From positions 1-25,888 of the IMG/VR virus record IMGVR_UViG_3300044858_006201: 25,888 nucleotides of DNA; one strand, 5' to 3'. The DNA comes from a virus. Positions 15,639 to 22,927 of this stretch are shown piece by piece. The notes under the pieces were generated by a model, which searched no databases, was not told where the DNA came from, and saw nothing but the letters and a program-made list of their open reading frames with translations. A program made the position numbers and the translations under genes. Numbering within the stretch: the stretch's first letter is position 1; every line of letters starts with the position of its first letter.

Positions 15639-16100
15639 TCAGCGGGACCAGATGAAGTGAACGCCCTCGACCATGCGCGTCGCGAGGTCTGCGGGCGGGG
15701 CCTCGGGGTCGAAGGGCATCTCGGTGCCCGGCTCGTGCTGCTTGCCACGGAAGAAGAGCCCGTTGAGCACCAGCGCGCGCATCCCGCGCGGCGCCCCGGA
15801 GGGACCGTGGGGGGCCTCGGGGTGGGCGGCGCGCGCCGCGGCGATCTCGGCCTCGCGCTCAGCCCAGCGCGCGTTGAAGCGCGCGGTCTGGGCGTCGAGG
15901 TCTTTCTGACCGCGCTCGATCGCAGCCGCGAGCGCTGCCTCGAGACGCGCGATCTGCTCGTCGCGGGCGGCGTCACCGACGGGCGCGGCGTCACCGAGCA
16001 CCGCGTCGACGACAGGCTCCGACGCTGCGGGCGTCGAGGCGTCGACGACGGGCGCGGCGTCACCGGGGCGCGCCGCGATCGGTCGGTTGCGGCGGCCCAT
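15639..16100 (-). CDS. Hypothetical protein in the Mu gp35 position, 153 aa
   Basis: A 153-residue protein directly after the major capsid gene. The ATG shares a base with the capsid stop (TGATG), fixing the start; the longer frame is a shadow of the capsid gene. An Ala/Pro/Asp-rich N-terminus (1-45) leads to a charged coiled coil (about 46-90, E-A-A-L-A-A-A-I-E-R and W-A-E-R-E-A-E-I-A-A-A). The C-terminal domain (about 105-153) reads M-R-A-L-V-L-N-G-L-F-F-R-G-K-Q-H-E-P-G, resembling short beta domains in proteins at this place in Mu-like phages. Function is unknown; a capsid-associated or neck role is inferred from order. Confidence 0.6.
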   Translation of the reverse strand: MGRRNRPIAARPGDAAPVVDASTPAASEPVVDAVLGDAAPVGDAARDEQIARLEAALAAAIERGQKDLDAQTARFNARWAEREAEIAAARAAHPEAPHGPSGAPRGMRALVLNGLFFRGKQHEPGTEMPFDPEAPPADLATRMVEGVHFIWSR

Positions 16101-17326
16101 CAGGTGAGGACCGAGGCCCAGAGGTAGCCCGACACGTTCGACGTCACGAAGACGTCGGTCGAGTGCGTCACCTTCGCGTACTCGCCGCCGGCGACGCCGG
16201 GGAGCAGCCAGGGGATGAACTGCACGTCCATCGCCTCGTTGAGGAAGCGGAACTGGTAGCCGAAGGCGTTCGTGCGCAGGGGCGACGGGCGCTCCTGCAC
16301 CGCGACCACGGCCGCGAAGCCCGACCACACGTCGGAGAGGCTGACGGTCTGGCCGTCGTTGGCGGTGTTCTTCTTCGCCTTGCCGACCACGACCTCGTCG
16401 ACCTCGAACACCTGCGCGAGGAGCTGCGGGGTGACCGCGAGGGGCGTGGCGCCGCCGACGGTGGAGGCGCGGCCGTACATCGCCGCGAGGATCTTGGGGT
16501 GGTCCTGCAGCGCGCGGAACACGTCGCGGCCGAGCACCATCACGAGCTTCACGCCGGGGGCGCGGAGGATCTTCGCGACGCCCGTGCGCACCTGGTTGGC
16601 GGGGTTCGACGACGGGTTGTCCCACTTGTCGGCCGCGCTCGCGATCGTCGTCGAGTAGCCCGACGCGTAGTTGCCCGCGGTGCCGACGGTCGCCGCGATG
16701 TCGATCTCCTGCATGAGCTCGAGCGTGTCGGCGAGGATCTCGGCGGTGGTCTGCCGCACCTCGACGAAGGGGGCGTCGGCGTTCTGCGAGACCTGCTTCG
16801 GGATGAAGGTCATCAGCCCGTAGTCTTCGACGAGGTACGTGCCCTGGTTCGACACCTTCCAGATGAGCTCGGGGAGGTTGGCGCCCTGACCCGCGAGGCG
16901 CGTGTCGGTGGGGCTCAGGCCCGTGCCGAAGGGGATGCTCGCGATCACGTTCGAGCGGTTGCCCACCTTCACGACGGGCATCAGGCGGTTGCCCACCATC
17001 TCGTTGTTCTGGTAGCGCACCAGGATGCCCGGCTGGTACGTCGGGATGTGCACGCTGTCGGGCGACGGCGAGAAGAGGTGCGAGAGGCCAGCGGCCTGCG
17101 CGGCGGCGAAGAGGCGCACGTCGCCGGGCGCGTAGGTGCGCACGCCGAACATCTTCGAGATGGTCGGGTCGGCGAACTCGGTCGCGACGGGCATCTGGAA
17201 GTACGGCTGCATCACCGCGTTGCCGTCACCGATGACGGAGAAGTCGCAGCTCGCGAGGGCGCCGGTCGACGCGGCCACGCGGCGCACGGTGGCGGGCGAC
17301 CACCGCTTGTTCATGGGGGAGTTCAT
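16100..17326 (-). CDS. Major capsid protein
   Basis: A 408-residue head subunit. It is identified by position (after the protease/scaffold and decoration genes, before the connectors), by size and by sequence: V-M-V-L-G-R-D-V-F-R-A-L-Q-D-H-P-K-I in the middle is a recurring capsid motif for a helix of the HK97-like peripheral domain. L-L-A-Q-V-F-E-V-D-E-V-V-V-G-K-A follows, then strands ending N-V-S-G-Y-L-W-A-S-V. The first 97 residues look like a removable N-terminal arm: K-R-W-S-P-A-T-V-R-R at 7-16, a helical Ala-rich part at 70-84, and a motif at 85-97 shared with the protease/scaffold protein. ATG at 17314 is an alternative start. Confidence 0.85.
   Translation of the reverse strand: MNSPMNKRWSPATVRRVAASTGALASCDFSVIGDGNAVMQPYFQMPVATEFADPTISKMFGVRTYAPGDVRLFAAAQAAGLSHLFSPSPDSVHIPTYQPGILVRYQNNEMVGNRLMPVVKVGNRSNVIASIPFGTGLSPTDTRLAGQGANLPELIWKVSNQGTYLVEDYGLMTFIPKQVSQNADAPFVEVRQTTAEILADTLELMQEIDIAATVGTAGNYASGYSTTIASAADKWDNPSSNPANQVRTGVAKILRAPGVKLVMVLGRDVFRALQDHPKILAAMYGRASTVGGATPLAVTPQLLAQVFEVDEVVVGKAKKNTANDGQTVSLSDVWSGFAAVVAVQERPSPLRTNAFGYQFRFLNEAMDVQFIPWLLPGVAGGEYAKVTHSTDVFVTSNVSGYLWASVLT
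17036..17074 (-). other. Shared motif copy in capsid protein, candidate cleavage site
   Basis: Codons 85-97 of the major capsid protein encode FSPSPDSVHIPTY. The protease/scaffold protein carries FSPSPESVHAPSF at residues 460-472. Nine of 13 positions are identical and the others conservative. A cut here would leave about 311 residues, a normal mature HK97-like capsid size. The cleavage role is inference. Confidence 0.5.
17283..17299. repeat. 17-base repeat, copy in capsid gene
   Basis: An exact 17-base match to 19763-19779, in the same reading frame. It encodes the S-P-A-T-V-R part of K-R-W-S-P-A-T-V-R-R at capsid residues 7-16. Similarity continues on both sides with scattered differences. 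Confidence 0.6.
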
Positions 17327-17367: not shown

Positions 17368-17754
17368 TCAGATCGTCTTGATGATCGTCATGCGGATGCG
17401 GTCACCCGCGGCGCCGGCCGAGTCGAGGGCGCGACCGATGACGGTGCCCGTGGTCAGCGTCCGCACGGTGCCTGTGGCGCCGCCCGACTCCAGGGTGTCG
17501 CCCGCGGTGATGGCGGCGGCGGCGTTGACGACCGCGTCGCCGTCGGTGATGAGCTCGATCGAGGTCGCGCCCGACGCCTGCGCGTAGCGCGCGACGCCGA
17601 GGAACTTGAGCGCCGACGCGGCGCCCGCGGGGAGGCGCGCGGTCATGTCGGCCGAGACGCTCTGGAAGCACGCGGCGCCTTCGAGGATGGCGGTCTCGGC
17701 GGTCGCGAAGCTGGTGGACTTGATCGGCGACTGCGTCGCCTTTGAGGTGGCCAT
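17368..17754 (-). CDS. Capsid decoration protein (DUF2190-like)
   Basis: A 128-residue Ala/Gly/Thr-rich protein between the maturation protein and the major capsid gene. The layout fits small capsid cement proteins: a flexible N-terminus (M-A-T-S-K-A-T-Q-S-P-I), then a beta-rich core with F-L-G-V-A-R-Y-A-Q-A-S-G, I-T-D-G-D-A-V-V-N-A-A-A-A-I-T-A-G-D, and a C-terminal V-I-G-R-A-L-D-S-A-G-A-A-G-D-R-I-R-M-T-I. This last part resembles the 'G.al.aa.agd.v.V.l' ending of DUF2190-type proteins, which stabilise the expanded head by binding its outer surface. Mu has gene 33 at this position. Flanking gaps are about 40 bases each, so it has its own ribosome site (weak AGAGAG). Confidence 0.65.
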   Translation of the reverse strand: MATSKATQSPIKSTSFATAETAILEGAACFQSVSADMTARLPAGAASALKFLGVARYAQASGATSIELITDGDAVVNAAAAITAGDTLESGGATGTVRTLTTGTVIGRALDSAGAAGDRIRMTIIKTI

Positions 17755-17796: not shown

Positions 17797-18498
17797 TCAG
17801 CGCGAGGCGGCGGCGAGCTCTTGCTCGGCGCGCACGCGGGCGGTGAAGAGGTCGATCTTGTGCTCGGCGGCGATCTGCTGCGCGCGCGCGTCGAGGCGCG
17901 TCGCGTCGTAGGCGAGGCCGCCCGCGGGGGCCGTGGCGTGGATCGAGCCGCCACCGGCGCCGAGGTTCGAGAGCAGCACGTCGGCCTGGGCGCGCGTGGT
18001 GCTGCCGCGCTCGCTCATCAGCTTGGCGCCCTCGGCCTGCGCGATGCGCTTCTCGGGGTAGAGGCGCGAGAAGCGCGCGCGGTCGGAGAGGCACAGCGCC
18101 ACGAGGTCGGCGCGCGCCTCGGCGTCGGCGAGGCCCGCGGCGATGGCGCGGTCGCTCATCTGCGCGGCCTCGGCTTCGGCGGCGGCGCGCTCCTTCTGCT
18201 GGAGCATCGCGAGCTCCTCGAGCTTCGCGCGGAGCTGCTCGTGGAGGGCGTCTTCGGCGTGCTCGAGGTCGGGGTTGAACCCGTCCATGCCGCAGGTCGT
18301 GGCCATGCGCTTGAGCATCTCCGCGCGCGCCATCTTGGCGCCCATCGCGTACGCGGGGTGCGCGCTCATCTCGGCGTCGCTCGCGGCGACGGCCTTCGCG
18401 TCGACCTCGGGAGCGGCGGCCTTCGGCGCCTCGGCGACGGGCGCGGACGGGGTCTGCGACGCCATCTCGGCGCCGGGCTTGATCTCGTTCTGCTGCAT
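17797..18498 (-). CDS. Capsid scaffold protein from internal start (Mu gpZ-like)
   Basis: Predicted separate product of 233 residues, in frame with and identical to the end of the maturation protein. The internal ATG at 18498 (codon 481) is preceded by GGAG with a 6-base spacer, the best ribosome site near any start in the head module, although it lies inside a continuous frame. The peptide starts MQQNEIKPGAEM and has an Ala/Pro linker, then charged helices (about 90-150, with E-E-L-A-M-L-Q-Q-K-E-R-A-A-A-E), typical of scaffolds. Mu genes I/Z and lambda C/Nu3 use the same nested plan, giving many scaffold copies per protease. It is rich in Ala, Glu, Met and Asp and has one Cys near the middle. 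Confidence 0.7.
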   Translation of the reverse strand: MQQNEIKPGAEMASQTPSAPVAEAPKAAAPEVDAKAVAASDAEMSAHPAYAMGAKMARAEMLKRMATTCGMDGFNPDLEHAEDALHEQLRAKLEELAMLQQKERAAAEAEAAQMSDRAIAAGLADAEARADLVALCLSDRARFSRLYPEKRIAQAEGAKLMSERGSTTRAQADVLLSNLGAGGGSIHATAPAGGLAYDATRLDARAQQIAAEHKIDLFTARVRAEQELAAASR

Positions 18499-19938
18499 GA
18501 TCTTCTCCGGGTTCTTCGTGCCGAAGCTCGGCGCGTGAACGGATTCGGGTGACGGCGAGAAACGGCGCGACGTGGCGCTCGCGGTGATGGGCGCCATGCC
18601 GTCGAGGAACGGGTGGTTGGTGAGCGCGACGCTGGTAAGCCGCGCTCCGATCGGCAGCCCCGTCTCGCGGCTGCGCGCGTTGAACGCGATGGCTGGCGAG
18701 ACGTACTTGTACTGCTCGGTGCGGACCATCTCGACGGCGCGCGCGTCGACCCACTTGAACGCGGCCCACAGCGTCTCGCCGCGGATCTCGACGTCGGTCA
18801 CCCAGAAGGGCGCGGGCACGCCCGTGACGGCGGCCTCGGGCGGCGGGCGCTCGGAGAAGTGCTCGAAGTCGCCGGGAACCTCACCGTTCTTCGTGGCCGC
18901 GAGGTTGGCCCTGATCTCTTCGAACACCTTCGCCGTGAACTCGACGGGGCCCTGCGGGTGCCCGCGAAAGGTGCCGAGGCGCGCGATCTGGTTCCACGTC
19001 GTGTGACCGACGGCCACGGGCGCCTTCGCATCGAAGACGAGCGCCTGCGGCTCGCCACGGAAGAGCGCGGGCTCGTCGAGCGCCGAGAGCGTCGCGGGGT
19101 CCGCGGTGCCCGTGAGCGCGATCGGCTCGTGGTGCGTGTCGGCGGCCCACACGGACGCAGCCTCGAGGGTGAACGCGAGCGGGAGGTCGTAGGGCAGCGA
19201 CGGGAGCTCAGCGCCCTTCGCGAGGTACGCGAGCGTGACGTGCGGCGTGAAGCCGTGGCTGGCGCTCACCGGCAGCCCGAGGTTGCGCAGCCGCCGCGCG
19301 AGGTCGTCGCGCACCGCCGAGAGGCCCGGCGCATCGACGAGGAGCACGCACGCGTCGGCGTCGTCGCCCGCGAAGCACGCGAGGCCCGAGAAGCGCGCGG
19401 GGAGCGGCGGCGTCTCGGCGGCCCAGCGCTCGACCGCGCCGCGCACAAGCTCGACGTTGCCGCCGAGGCTCGCGGCGTCGCCGAGGTGCACGAGCGTCAG
19501 GTGCGCGTCGAGCTTGTCGTCGAGGGCGACGTACTCCGCGATCTCCTCGGGGATCGTGAGCACCACGCACACGCTGGTGTGCGGGCCGTCGCTCATCGTC
19601 GCGGCCTTGTCCGCGGCGTCGAGCTGCCGCACGACCTTCCGCGCCCATGCGTACCCGGGGTCGCCGCCCCAGCCGTTCCATGCCTGCCAGCCCGCGCCCT
19701 GCTCGCCCCAGGTCTGGCCGTCCTTGTCGCTCTGGTGGCGATCGAAGTAGGCGAGCATCCGCCGCACGGTGGCGGGCGAGAGGCGCTTGCCGTTCGAGAG
19801 GTCGCGCGCGCGGGCGATGCCGATGGGCGTCATGCCGCGCTGGCTCTCGGGCTTCTCCGCGCGGACCTCGAGGGCGCGCTTCGCCGCTTCGCGCGCGCCC
19901 TGCGGCGGCGTGAAGTCGATGTGATCGTAGCGGGCCAT
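17797..19938 (-). CDS. Fused maturation protein: phage N-domain, 2H phosphoesterase, Mu gpI-like protease, scaffold
   Basis: A 713-residue multidomain protein; its ATG shares a base with the portal stop (TGATG). Residues 1-110 are a phage-associated domain with G-I-A-R-A-R-D-L-S-N-G-K-R-L-S-P-A-T-V-R-R and a Trp/Gly-rich end. Residues about 118-280 are a 2H phosphoesterase (LigT/2'-5' RNA ligase-like) with both catalytic motifs intact, H146-L-T148 and H233-V-T235, 87 residues apart as usual. Residues about 300-450 resemble Mu protease I: G-D-F-E-H at 356-360, L-W-A-A-F-K-W-V, Y-K-Y-V-S-P, and S-V-A-L-T-N-H-P at 436-443. His360 and Ser414 are candidate catalytic residues (inference). Residues 481-713 are a helical scaffold with an internal start. 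No frameshift is seen. It should act inside the prohead. Confidence 0.85.
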   Translation of the reverse strand: MARYDHIDFTPPQGAREAAKRALEVRAEKPESQRGMTPIGIARARDLSNGKRLSPATVRRMLAYFDRHQSDKDGQTWGEQGAGWQAWNGWGGDPGYAWARKVVRQLDAADKAATMSDGPHTSVCVVLTIPEEIAEYVALDDKLDAHLTLVHLGDAASLGGNVELVRGAVERWAAETPPLPARFSGLACFAGDDADACVLLVDAPGLSAVRDDLARRLRNLGLPVSASHGFTPHVTLAYLAKGAELPSLPYDLPLAFTLEAASVWAADTHHEPIALTGTADPATLSALDEPALFRGEPQALVFDAKAPVAVGHTTWNQIARLGTFRGHPQGPVEFTAKVFEEIRANLAATKNGEVPGDFEHFSERPPPEAAVTGVPAPFWVTDVEIRGETLWAAFKWVDARAVEMVRTEQYKYVSPAIAFNARSRETGLPIGARLTSVALTNHPFLDGMAPITASATSRRFSPSPESVHAPSFGTKNPEKIMQQNEIKPGAEMASQTPSAPVAEAPKAAAPEVDAKAVAASDAEMSAHPAYAMGAKMARAEMLKRMATTCGMDGFNPDLEHAEDALHEQLRAKLEELAMLQQKERAAAEAEAAQMSDRAIAAGLADAEARADLVALCLSDRARFSRLYPEKRIAQAEGAKLMSERGSTTRAQADVLLSNLGAGGGSIHATAPAGGLAYDATRLDARAQQIAAEHKIDLFTARVRAEQELAAASR
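18505..18508 (-). promoter_or_regulatory. Internal ribosome binding site for scaffold
   Basis: GGAG within CCGGAGAAGATC before the ATG at 18498, with a 6-base spacer. It sits where the protease domain ends and the helical scaffold begins, so it decides the start of the nested scaffold gene. Confidence 0.65.
18523..18561 (-). other. Shared motif copy at protease/scaffold junction, candidate cleavage site
   Basis: Codons 460-472 encode FSPSPESVHAPSF, 8 residues before the internal scaffold start and after the last recognisable protease element. The near-identical copy lies in the capsid protein (residues 85-97). Position at a domain boundary supports a self-processing site; this is inference. 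Confidence 0.5.
19763..19779. repeat. 17-base repeat, copy in maturation protein gene
   Basis: An exact 17-base match to 17283-17299, in the same reading frame. It encodes S-P-A-T-V-R within K-R-L-S-P-A-T-V-R-R at residues 51-60 of the N-terminal domain, where it is part of a conserved-looking helix. Confidence 0.6.
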
Positions 19939-21335
19939 CAGGCGACTCCCTCTTCGCTCGTTGAATCGTCGGGCAGCACCGGCGCGCGCTTGTCGTTCTT
20001 GAGCAGCGGCTCACCGGGCTCGAGGTTCGGGATGGAGAGCGCGTTCGCGCCGCTCTTCTCACCGATCGGGCCGCCCATCTCGCTCCACGCCTTCATGCGG
20101 CGCGCGAGCTTGTCGAGGTCTTCGCCGCCGACGACGTCGAAGAACATCTGCGGTACCGGCGCCTGCGCACCGAACGAGCGCGCGACCATCGGGCCGAGGA
20201 GCCCGAGCCGAAGCGTGTCCGCGATCTGCGTCGCGTCGTTCTTCGCGTTCGACTCTTCGTTGCGCTCGTGGACCTCGCCGAGCGCGCGGTTGCCGCCGCC
20301 GCTCCCGACCTCGGTGCCCAGCGTCGAGCCGTGCACGGCCTTCGAGAGCTCGGCGTTGCACATGCCGATGAAGTTGGCCTGCGCGCGCCCCTCGCCCGGC
20401 ACGGTCTTGATGTCGACGTCGCAGGTGTCGGGGAAGACGCCCGCGGTCTGCGCGCTCATGTTGGCGAGCACCTCGCGCAGCATCAGCTCGTCGTTCGTCG
20501 TCGCGCCGTCGCTCTGCCCGTGCTCGCCGCGCTTGAAGCTGCCAAGGCGGATGCCGCGCGCGGCCCACGCGATGAAGGCCACATACTCGCGCACGCCGAG
20601 GCGCTTGAAGGTCGTGTACCAGGCGCACGTGCGGCCCACGCCCTCGCGCGTCGGGTAGGTGCCCATCACGCGCGGCGTGTGCACGAGGAACTTGCCCGGC
20701 ACGAGGCGGTTGATCGCGCGGACGTTGACGCCCGGGAAGGCGCCGAAAGGGCTGTCGACGTTGACCGGGCTGATGGCGTCTTCGCCGGTGCCCGAGGCGT
20801 CCCAGATGTGCAGGCTCCAGTTGGTGGCGTATGCGAAGCGGCGCGGGTGAATCCACTCGGCCGCGCGCGGCGACCACCACTCCCCGCCGCCGTCGCGGGG
20901 CTCGACGCGCCACACAAGCTCGTGGCCCGCGCGCCCGTGATAGACGGCGCCCATCAGGTCCGCGATCACGCCCGCGAAGCTGCGCCCGTTGTCGCTCTCG
21001 GGCACGATCTCAGCGAGTCGCTCCGCGCACCACGCGGCGATCTCTTTGCCGAGCGGGCCGCTGCCTTCGGGGGGCCGCAGCTCCCACGGCGCGCCCGCGA
21101 CGCGCATCTCGCGACGCTGCAGGTCGCCGTGCAGGTGAGGGTCGCGCCCGCGGCACTCTTCGAGGAGGTCCGCGAGCGTCCAGAGGTAGCCCTGGTCCGC
21201 GAGGCCGAGCACCTGCGTCACGTAGTCGGGGCCGAGGTTCGACCCGAGAACCCGGGAGAAGCGGTCGTAGTAGGGCGCGGGCGCGATCTGCGCGAGCAGC
21301 GACAGCGTCGTCGCGGAGAGCATCGGTGGCGGCAT
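19938..21335 (-). CDS. Portal protein (DUF935, Mu gp29-like)
   Basis: A 465-residue portal, the dodecameric ring through which DNA enters and leaves the head. It fits DUF935: D-L-Q-R-R-E-M-R-V-A-G-A-P-W-E-L-R-P at 71-88 corresponds to the family's 'l..R...v.g..W.v'. G-H-E-L-V-W-R-V-E-P follows at 137-146, and R-A-I-N-R-L-V-P-G-K-F-L-V-H at 206-219 precedes the long helices. G-N-R-A-L-G-E-V-H-E-R-N-E near 348-360 is the 'a..Hn.v' signature, and A-D-T-L-R-L-G-L-L-G-P-M-V follows. The start is the ATG 14 bases after the terminase stop; a longer frame only shadows the terminase gene, and ATG 21323 is an alternative. Length is close to Mu gp29. Confidence 0.9.
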   Translation of the reverse strand: MPPPMLSATTLSLLAQIAPAPYYDRFSRVLGSNLGPDYVTQVLGLADQGYLWTLADLLEECRGRDPHLHGDLQRREMRVAGAPWELRPPEGSGPLGKEIAAWCAERLAEIVPESDNGRSFAGVIADLMGAVYHGRAGHELVWRVEPRDGGGEWWSPRAAEWIHPRRFAYATNWSLHIWDASGTGEDAISPVNVDSPFGAFPGVNVRAINRLVPGKFLVHTPRVMGTYPTREGVGRTCAWYTTFKRLGVREYVAFIAWAARGIRLGSFKRGEHGQSDGATTNDELMLREVLANMSAQTAGVFPDTCDVDIKTVPGEGRAQANFIGMCNAELSKAVHGSTLGTEVGSGGGNRALGEVHERNEESNAKNDATQIADTLRLGLLGPMVARSFGAQAPVPQMFFDVVGGEDLDKLARRMKAWSEMGGPIGEKSGANALSIPNLEPGEPLLKNDKRAPVLPDDSTSEEGVA

Positions 21336-21349
21336 GGGTGTGCTCTCGC

Positions 21350-22927
21350 TCAGAAGGACTCTTGAACGCGGACGGGTACGTTCTGGGGCGCAGCGTTCGT
21401 CGCGCTGAGGTTGACCTTCATCGCCGCGTCCCACGCGTGCGAGAGCGCGTCGACGTCATCGTCTTCGCGGTCGCCGACGCCCGAGAACCCGGTCACGACG
21501 CGCACGAACGCCGAGAGGTCCGCGTCGGTCGTCGAGCGCATGGTGCGTGCGTCGGATGGGATGCGGATGCGCCCTGTGTTCCACGCGGCCGCCGAGGGCT
21601 GCGCGCGCAGGTACTTGTCGCCGGTCGCAGCGACGTAGCGGATCGTGAGGCCCGGGGCGATCTTCGCGAGCGCTTCGCCGAGGGCCTTGCCGTCGCGCGT
21701 CGCCTCGATGTGCAGCGGGGCGCCGCCGAAGCTGCGCTGCCACGCGAGCACCTGCGGCGCCGCGTGCTCGGGGCGCAGCTTGAGCCGCAGCACACCCGCG
21801 AGGTCGGCCACCGTCGTGCGCTTCTGCGTCGCGGCGTCGGTGACCTCGCGCACTGCGAGGGCCACGATCACGGTGTGGTTGGAGTTCGGCCCGTCGGTGC
21901 CCGCGGGGTCGCAGCCGATGACGAGACGGGCGCCCGTGACCTGCGGCGCGTCGCATCGGGCCGGCTGCGCGTAGACGATGCCGCCGCGCGGTCGCGGCTG
22001 GCCCTGGTAGATGCTCGCGGCGTCGTAGGGGCCGACCTCGACGAGGCGTTGTCGCGCGCCCTCGACGGTCCACCCGACGTGCGTGCCGTCGAGGAGTTGC
22101 TCGCGAGGCCAGAGCACCACGTCGCCGTGGTCGTCGGGCGTGCCGTCGGCGTTGGCGAGGAACGGAAGGTTGACCACCTCCCAATCGCCCGCGCCGATGA
22201 CGCCGCGCTCGAGCTGCCCGAGCGGATCGTTCTCGTTCCAGCGCGTCCCGATCATCACCGCGCTGCCCTCTTCGGGGATGCGCGTGAAGGCCACCGAGGT
22301 CAGCCAGTCGGCGATGCGCGACTGCGTGAGCGGCGAGTCCGCTTCGAGGCGGTTCTTGACGAGGTCGTCGCCGATGAGCACCCGCGCCGGGTTGCCCGTG
22401 AGGGGCCCGCCGACGCCGGTGAACATCGCGCTGCCACCCTGCGGCGTGACCCACTGCCGGTAGGTCTGCCGGTCGGAGCCGGTGATGGCGCCGACGTCGA
22501 GGGCGATGCGCTGCGCCGCGAGGCTCTGCGTGTCGGCCTGGTCTTGCGCGTAGGTCACATACGCGATCGGCCACGTCGGGCGTCGCTTGAGAAGGTGCGG
22601 GATCGCGTGCGTCGCGAGCGTCGTCTTCCCGTGCTGCGCGGGCACCGACACCAGCGCGCGCACTCGCTCGCCCGCGGCGATGCGGTCGAAGATGCGCGCG
22701 ATCGGAGCGAGGTGGCGCGGCGAGAGCCGGTGCGGGGAGGCGAGCGGGACGAAGTCGAGGAGGTCGGCGGTCTGGAGCCGCTCGCGGCGCTCTGCGTCGG
22801 CGCGGTCACGAGCGCGGCGGTCGCGCTCCTCGAGGAGCGAGAGCAGTTCAGCCCGTTGATCCCTCGTCAGGCGGCGTAGGTCGACCGGCGGCGGCGAGGA
22901 GCTCGGTGATGCGCTGGTCGAGGGCAT
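21350..22927 (-). CDS. Terminase large subunit
   Basis: A 525-residue packaging motor. The N-terminal ATPase has a P-loop V-P-A-Q-H-G-K-T-T (95-103), the deviant form usual in terminases, a Walker B R-V-L-I-G-D-D (182-188), and a G-T-R-W motif (227-230) after it. The C-terminal RNase H-like nuclease has V-I-G-C-D-P-A-G-T-D (336-345), H-I-E-A-T (406-410) and D-D-D-V-D-A-L-S-H-A (489-498), which supply acidic metal ligands (D340, E408, D493 or neighbours). This places it with the large group of phage terminases whose C-terminus ends in a 'DD.vDAl' motif. It overlaps the small terminase gene by 80 bases. The N-terminal 55 residues are charged and helical, and a later start cannot be excluded. 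Confidence 0.93.
   Translation of the reverse strand: MPSTSASPSSSPPPVDLRRLTRDQRAELLSLLEERDRRARDRADAERRERLQTADLLDFVPLASPHRLSPRHLAPIARIFDRIAAGERVRALVSVPAQHGKTTLATHAIPHLLKRRPTWPIAYVTYAQDQADTQSLAAQRIALDVGAITGSDRQTYRQWVTPQGGSAMFTGVGGPLTGNPARVLIGDDLVKNRLEADSPLTQSRIADWLTSVAFTRIPEEGSAVMIGTRWNENDPLGQLERGVIGAGDWEVVNLPFLANADGTPDDHGDVVLWPREQLLDGTHVGWTVEGARQRLVEVGPYDAASIYQGQPRPRGGIVYAQPARCDAPQVTGARLVIGCDPAGTDGPNSNHTVIVALAVREVTDAATQKRTTVADLAGVLRLKLRPEHAAPQVLAWQRSFGGAPLHIEATRDGKALGEALAKIAPGLTIRYVAATGDKYLRAQPSAAAWNTGRIRIPSDARTMRSTTDADLSAFVRVVTGFSGVGDREDDDVDALSHAWDAAMKVNLSATNAAPQNVPVRVQESF

Follow-up and report, generated by a model that had tools for sequence, protein, structure and literature searches.

A 2H phosphoesterase domain embedded in a Mu-like head maturation protease of an IMG/VR virus

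The window analyzed here, a 25,888-base IMG/VR virus record with a G+C content of 72%, is a contig representing a genome fragment. It contains a single open frame in which a 2H phosphoesterase domain stands between a phage N-terminal domain and a Mu gpI-like maturation protease with its scaffold. The fusion is real and well conserved. An earlier note made from the sequence had described it, and separate Pfam and PHROGs matches within one uninterrupted frame bear that description out; the two motifs H146-L-T and H233-V-T lie intact at the residues that had been named. Judged from the sequences, the feature is more than chance, since the HxT pair recurs throughout the profile-selected relatives described below (86/86) and the first motif lay outside the scan pattern. 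As a tentative reading, to which we give a little less than an even chance, the intact 2H enzyme would be cargo on a Mu-like head protease, packaged with it, freed, injected and used to cut a host phosphodiester.

The gene and its surroundings

The whole gene occupies 17797..19938 on the minus strand and encodes 713 amino acids. Its start ATG overlaps the stop codon of the portal gene (TGATG), with AGGGAG ahead of it at about 19946-19951. The span 18499-19938, to which the feature had first been assigned, corresponds to codons 1-480, and the real gene runs on to 17797; position 18499 is the exact low end of codon 480, and the next codon, 481, is an ATG inside the gene, preceded by GGAG at a distance of 7-10 nt. 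Translating 18499-19938 on the plus strand does not yield this protein.

The neighboring genes, all on the minus strand, follow the order large terminase (21350..22927; Pfam, PHROGs), Mu-type portal (Portal_Mu, 19938..21434; Pfam) immediately upstream of the 2H-protease gene, the 2H-protease gene itself, a cement/decoration-type head protein (Phage_cement_2, phrog_673; 17368..17754) and the major capsid protein (16100..17326), the last two recognized by both Pfam and PHROGs. Farther along the window are a neck protein, sheath, tail tube and baseplate J. These genes indicate a Mu-like head with a contractile tail. Phage Mu has gp30 (MuF) between portal and protease; in the window a MuF gene is absent from this interval, and the 2H-protease gene begins at the portal stop. 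PADLOC gave no match.

The N-terminal head-module domain (residues 1-112; 19603..19938, minus strand) was recognized by PHROGs as phrog_2859, with a match at residues 2-120 (3e-18). This domain is very common in IMG/VR, with at least 598 matching stretches; because a scan with the full protein returned almost only relatives of the N-domain, the protease and the 2H domain were then scanned separately. Its fusion partners there are lambda-type portals (L002, L013, L041, L079) and Mu-like proteases (L004, L088), the two carrier types that are likewise used by 2H.

The protease and its internal scaffold start

The Mu gpI-like protease core covers about residues 300-460 (18559..19041, minus strand; Pfam, PHROGs and alignment). 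PF10123 (Mu-like_Pro) matched residues 334-629 at 1.9e-19, with 70.8 bits against a gathering score of 25.2. His360, in D-[FY]-E-H-x-S-E (18859..18861), is the putative catalytic histidine, and Ser414, in [VL]-S-P-A (18697..18699), the putative nucleophile; both are encoded on the minus strand and are invariant in eight protease relatives. By the PF10123 score, these His and Ser motifs and the position of the gene between portal and capsid, the sequence is that of a Mu gpI-like protease. In two relatives (L091, L092) a protease of the same family follows a different N-terminal domain (HHD...GARGG), which means that the N-terminus of this protease is generally variable.

The scaffold-like part, residues 481-713 (17797..18498, minus strand), has its own ATG (M481) with a Shine-Dalgarno GGAG at 18505-18508. 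A Shine-Dalgarno match of at least four bases precedes the scaffold-start ATG in all eight genes compared (window, L088-L092, L094 and L095), against 24% of other in-frame ATGs. The conservation of this start suggests that the scaffold can be made without the enzyme, and if so the 2H form would be a minority product. In phage Mu, Z lies within I. The window gene thus shares PF10123, an internal scaffold start and gene order with the Mu gpI protease and gpZ scaffold, whereas Mu gpI, to our knowledge, has neither a 2H nor a phrog_2859 domain.

The 2H domain

The 2H domain comprises about residues 118-285 (19084..19587, minus strand), within which Pfam places PF13563 (2_5_RNA_ligase2, 2'-5' RNA ligase superfamily) at residues 139-268 with an E value of 1.6e-14. 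Its two catalytic motifs, located by sequence and alignment, are H146-L-T148 (19495..19503) and H233-V-T235 (19234..19242), both on the minus strand. M115 was considered as a separate start for the domain and rejected, as it has no convincing Shine-Dalgarno sequence. An AlphaFold model of the 2H region, built from an alignment of 66 sequences without the annotated phage rows, had a mean pLDDT of 91 and a pTM of 0.86; a single-sequence model of the whole protein (pLDDT 42.5) was discarded.

When this model was compared with the PDB, the top match was D. radiodurans CPDase (E 6.6e-9, TM 0.68); CPDase and T. thermophilus LigT ranked above E. coli LigT, viral 2',5'-phosphodiesterases and Usb1. Forty-eight PDB chains matched at E<=0.001, and among the matches listed all were 2H proteins or 2H-containing entries. 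The nearest solved structures by sequence profile were the LigT/CPDase entries 1vdx, 5h7e, 2fyh and 1iuh (E 1e-11 to 2e-8), of which 5h7e and 1iuh were again nearest by fold. The domain therefore belongs to the 2H superfamily by its predicted fold and its two H-x-[TS] motifs, as had been expected of it.

Searching IMG/VR with an alignment of six 2H sequences gave 205 relatives, of which the best 80 were retained; together with loci from other scans they formed a set of 86 ORFs that includes near-copies. The second HxT was part of the search pattern, while the first was not selected for. In this set (best 80 of 205 plus other loci) HxT was present at both sites in 86 of 86 ORFs, so the catalytic histidines persist in the relatives, and the Pro preceding the second His and the Phe of GxGxF were equally invariant (86/86). 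Five residues after the second His, 82 of the 86 had Tyr and four had Trp, never Arg. The residue there in the window, Tyr238 (19225..19227, minus strand), aligns with Arg130 of E. coli LigT, which holds the product phosphate and the nucleophilic water (PMC5283653). The chemistry of these domains may accordingly differ from that of LigT.

The earlier proposal to place the domain by profile searches among LigT, ThpR and Acb1 gave a divided answer: LigT/CPDase structures matched, but the LigT/ThpR equivalog TIGR02258 scored 29.6 bits against a cut-off of 65.7, and the window protein had no match to Pfam Acb1 (PF23474) at E<=0.01. Identity as a ThpR/RNA-CPDase equivalog was rejected on the TIGR02258 score and the replacement of Arg130 by Tyr or Trp. 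The particular link to Acb1 that had been raised is not supported as it stood. The best Acb1 chains by sequence reached E 0.016 by profile and 0.51 by phmmer, and the Acb1 structures matched the model at E 6e-4 to 1.3e-3 with TM 0.42-0.44, far below LigT/CPDase and Usb1. Characteristic features of Acb1 are aromatic base-stacking residues, Glu141 and a C-terminal lid (PMC9117128). Acb1 shares the 2H fold, and that of Burkholderia phage BCSR5 has HxTLAY as its second motif, so that in the alignment it too has Tyr five residues after the second His; unlike the window domain, Acb1 is a stand-alone protein. Taken together, the conserved motifs, the score below the TIGR02258 cut-off and the missing Pfam Acb1 match point to a catalytically equipped 2H domain outside both the ThpR equivalog and Pfam Acb1.

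The likeness to LigT and ThpR, from which the domain differs in being embedded in a head protein, extends from the predicted fold to HxT/HxT and GxGxF. It raises the alternative that the enzyme heals RNA ends as a LigT/ThpR-like 2',3'-cyclic phosphodiesterase, mending host-cut tRNA or mRNA either from the particle or in the producing cell. Both profile and fold put LigT/CPDase structures nearest; even so we consider this unlikely. The domain falls below the equivalog cut-off and lacks the LigT arginine in all members of the set, and neither an RNA ligase nor a kinase was recognized among the window ORFs tested with Pfam and PHROGs. Iyer et al., in the portions of their text available, also report never having seen this 2H type paired with RNA ligases (PMC5512222). 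Usb1 in turn appears among the fold matches (5v1m, TM 0.66), which fits a packaged ribonuclease, a Usb1-like 2H enzyme injected to cut host or CRISPR RNA in parallel to the PBECR RNases on MuF and portal proteins. Such a role was proposed for 2H-MuF and 2H-portal fusions in the same available text (PMC5512222); here, where sequence profiles did not pick Usb1, it seems quite improbable.

Relatives and modular exchange

Two related loci (L094 and L095/L096) have the same order of N-domain, 2H, Mu-like protease and scaffold, while a close relative, L088, has the same N-domain and protease without 2H, from which it follows that the 2H domain is an exchangeable insert. Identity differed by domain: L094 and L095 agreed at 119/162 positions in 2H and 81/162 in the protease, and the window and L095 at 91/113 in the N-domain and 81/156 in 2H. 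The parts thus move independently and have been reshuffled. The 2H domains of L094 and L095 are under constraint (dN 0.18, dS 0.48), and this pair is clearer than the comparison of the window with its relatives, where a dN/dS of about 0.7-0.8 is only suggestive because dS is poorly estimated at 72% GC.

A quick tree of 54 2H domains grouped the window with L094 and L095 (support 99) and then with the portal-fused L097 (96). Carrier type changed 15 times on this tree, against a minimum possible of five for six groups, although the domain is short and some carrier labels were assigned from flank similarity to Pfam-tested members. The starred branches alone call for at least two changes for Mu-like protease carriers and three for portals, each change being a gain or a loss.

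Carriers of the 2H domain

Pfam searches of 68 non-redundant viral 2H ORFs assigned about 16 to portal families, 12 to XkdF, seven to Mu-like proteases, four each to S78 and MuF and three to capsid, in categories that can overlap within one protein. In the carriers examined, the 2H domain followed the portal in 19 of 19 portal fusions and preceded the protease in 23 of 23 fusions to XkdF and Mu-like proteases, the exception being the S78 group of Streptomyces-type elements, in which it follows the protease. The Streptomyces contigs with S78-2H (L180, L182, L184, L187, L189, L190 and L201) are probable prophages or remnants. Where a neighbor was recognized, the 2H-protease gene was preceded by a portal at 15 loci and the 2H-portal gene was followed by a protease at five (two of them near-copies), and the reverse order occurred at none. 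The 2H domain thus lies nearly always between portal and protease. A common explanation would be that inserts are tolerated at the boundary between portal and protease and end up either as the tail of the first gene or as the head of the second. It is striking, and more than a single fusion, that one enzyme is found repeatedly at the same point of the head cluster on unrelated carriers.

Other domains were met in the same ORFs: a uracil-DNA glycosylase domain between 2H and an XkdF protease (L118:5323-7758), a histidine phosphatase together with 2H (L152:4078-7191) and a Zeta_toxin match in one of the 68.

The preference for head-building proteins, together with AKAP18-type 2H domains with bound AMP among the fold matches, could also mean that the 2H fold is a structural element of the head that binds nucleotides or RNA, with catalysis incidental. 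We regard this as very improbable, given the invariance of both HxT motifs across the 86 ORFs and the close relative L088, which makes the same protease without 2H; the occurrence of a single domain on unrelated carriers also speaks against a structural part specific to one carrier. A broader proposal is that tailed phages use the stretch from portal to maturation protease as a general cargo slot. Enzyme cassettes (2H, uracil-DNA glycosylase, histidine phosphatase) would be swapped onto whichever carrier is present, be cut free inside the prohead by that carrier's own protease and be injected, so that host nucleotide signals are destroyed ahead of all phage gene expression. We hold this generalization to be possible but rather doubtful.

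Comparison with known systems

In the portions of text available, packaging and injection were predicted for 2H-MuF and 2H-portal fusions in 2017 and 2022, with the enzymes proposed to act as RNases or against nucleotide signals, and a Nudix domain fused to a capsid-processing peptidase was also reported (PMC5512222, PMC9503650 for the 2H fusions; PMC9503650 for Nudix). The same portions of PMC5512222 and PMC9503650 name 2H with MuF and portal only and do not mention a 2H-protease fusion. To that extent the idea of a packaged 2H is already known for MuF and portal, and a maturation protease as carrier is a variant of it; the superfamily, the tethering of the enzyme to a head protein and the portal-protease neighborhood are shared, while the carrier differs.

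Closer in arrangement are actinophage proteins with 2H and XkdF-type proteases, namely gp18 of Arthrobacter phage Edmundo, gp20 of Kovu and gp7 of Microbacterium phage ValentiniPuff. In these, too, the 2H domain precedes a maturation protease and the gene belongs to the head module, but the protease is of the XkdF type (PF14550, found in ValentiniPuff), phrog_2859 is absent and the 2H domain is about 29-36% identical. Among annotated phage records, none matched the window protein in both its 2H and its protease part. GenBank labels such actinophage genes 'capsid maturation protease', 'RNA ligase' or 'aldolase'; for gp18 of Arthrobacter phages Laroye, LiSara, Shrooms and Wheelbite, some records read 'aldolase class I', a name at odds with the 2H match.

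A possible course of packaging and delivery

The reading of the enzyme as head-protease cargo starts from the observed fusion, the predicted 2H fold, the conserved catalytic residues and the modular gain, loss and exchange of the domain; to these it would add packaging, release and a role against host signals. The long form, consisting of N-domain, 2H and protease, would enter the prohead with scaffold and capsid protein, and because translation from the internal ATG would yield a shorter scaffold without the enzyme, the particle would incorporate only a few copies of the enzyme. The protease would free the 2H domain during maturation, and the domain would pass into the cell together with the DNA to hydrolyze a host 2'-5', 3'-5' cyclic or 2',3'-cyclic phosphodiester before early genes act, the most likely target being a defense signal or defense-cleaved RNA. 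Packaging, delivery and release by self-cleavage, all suggested in the earlier note, are plausible, and the repeated attachment of 2H to portal, MuF, protease and capsid proteins lends them indirect support; the enzyme could alternatively stay behind in the producing cell, or share the fate of protease and scaffold and be expelled or degraded. We found no virion proteomics of such 2H head-protein fusions in the literature.

Comparable fusions occur in several cultured actinophages, which makes the question of packaging directly testable, and extra domains between portal and protease offer a simple route to finding other virion-borne effectors. If the enzyme is packaged, the phage could act at the moment of entry and before early expression, breaking down cyclic or 2'-5' nucleotide alarms or repairing defense-cut RNA.
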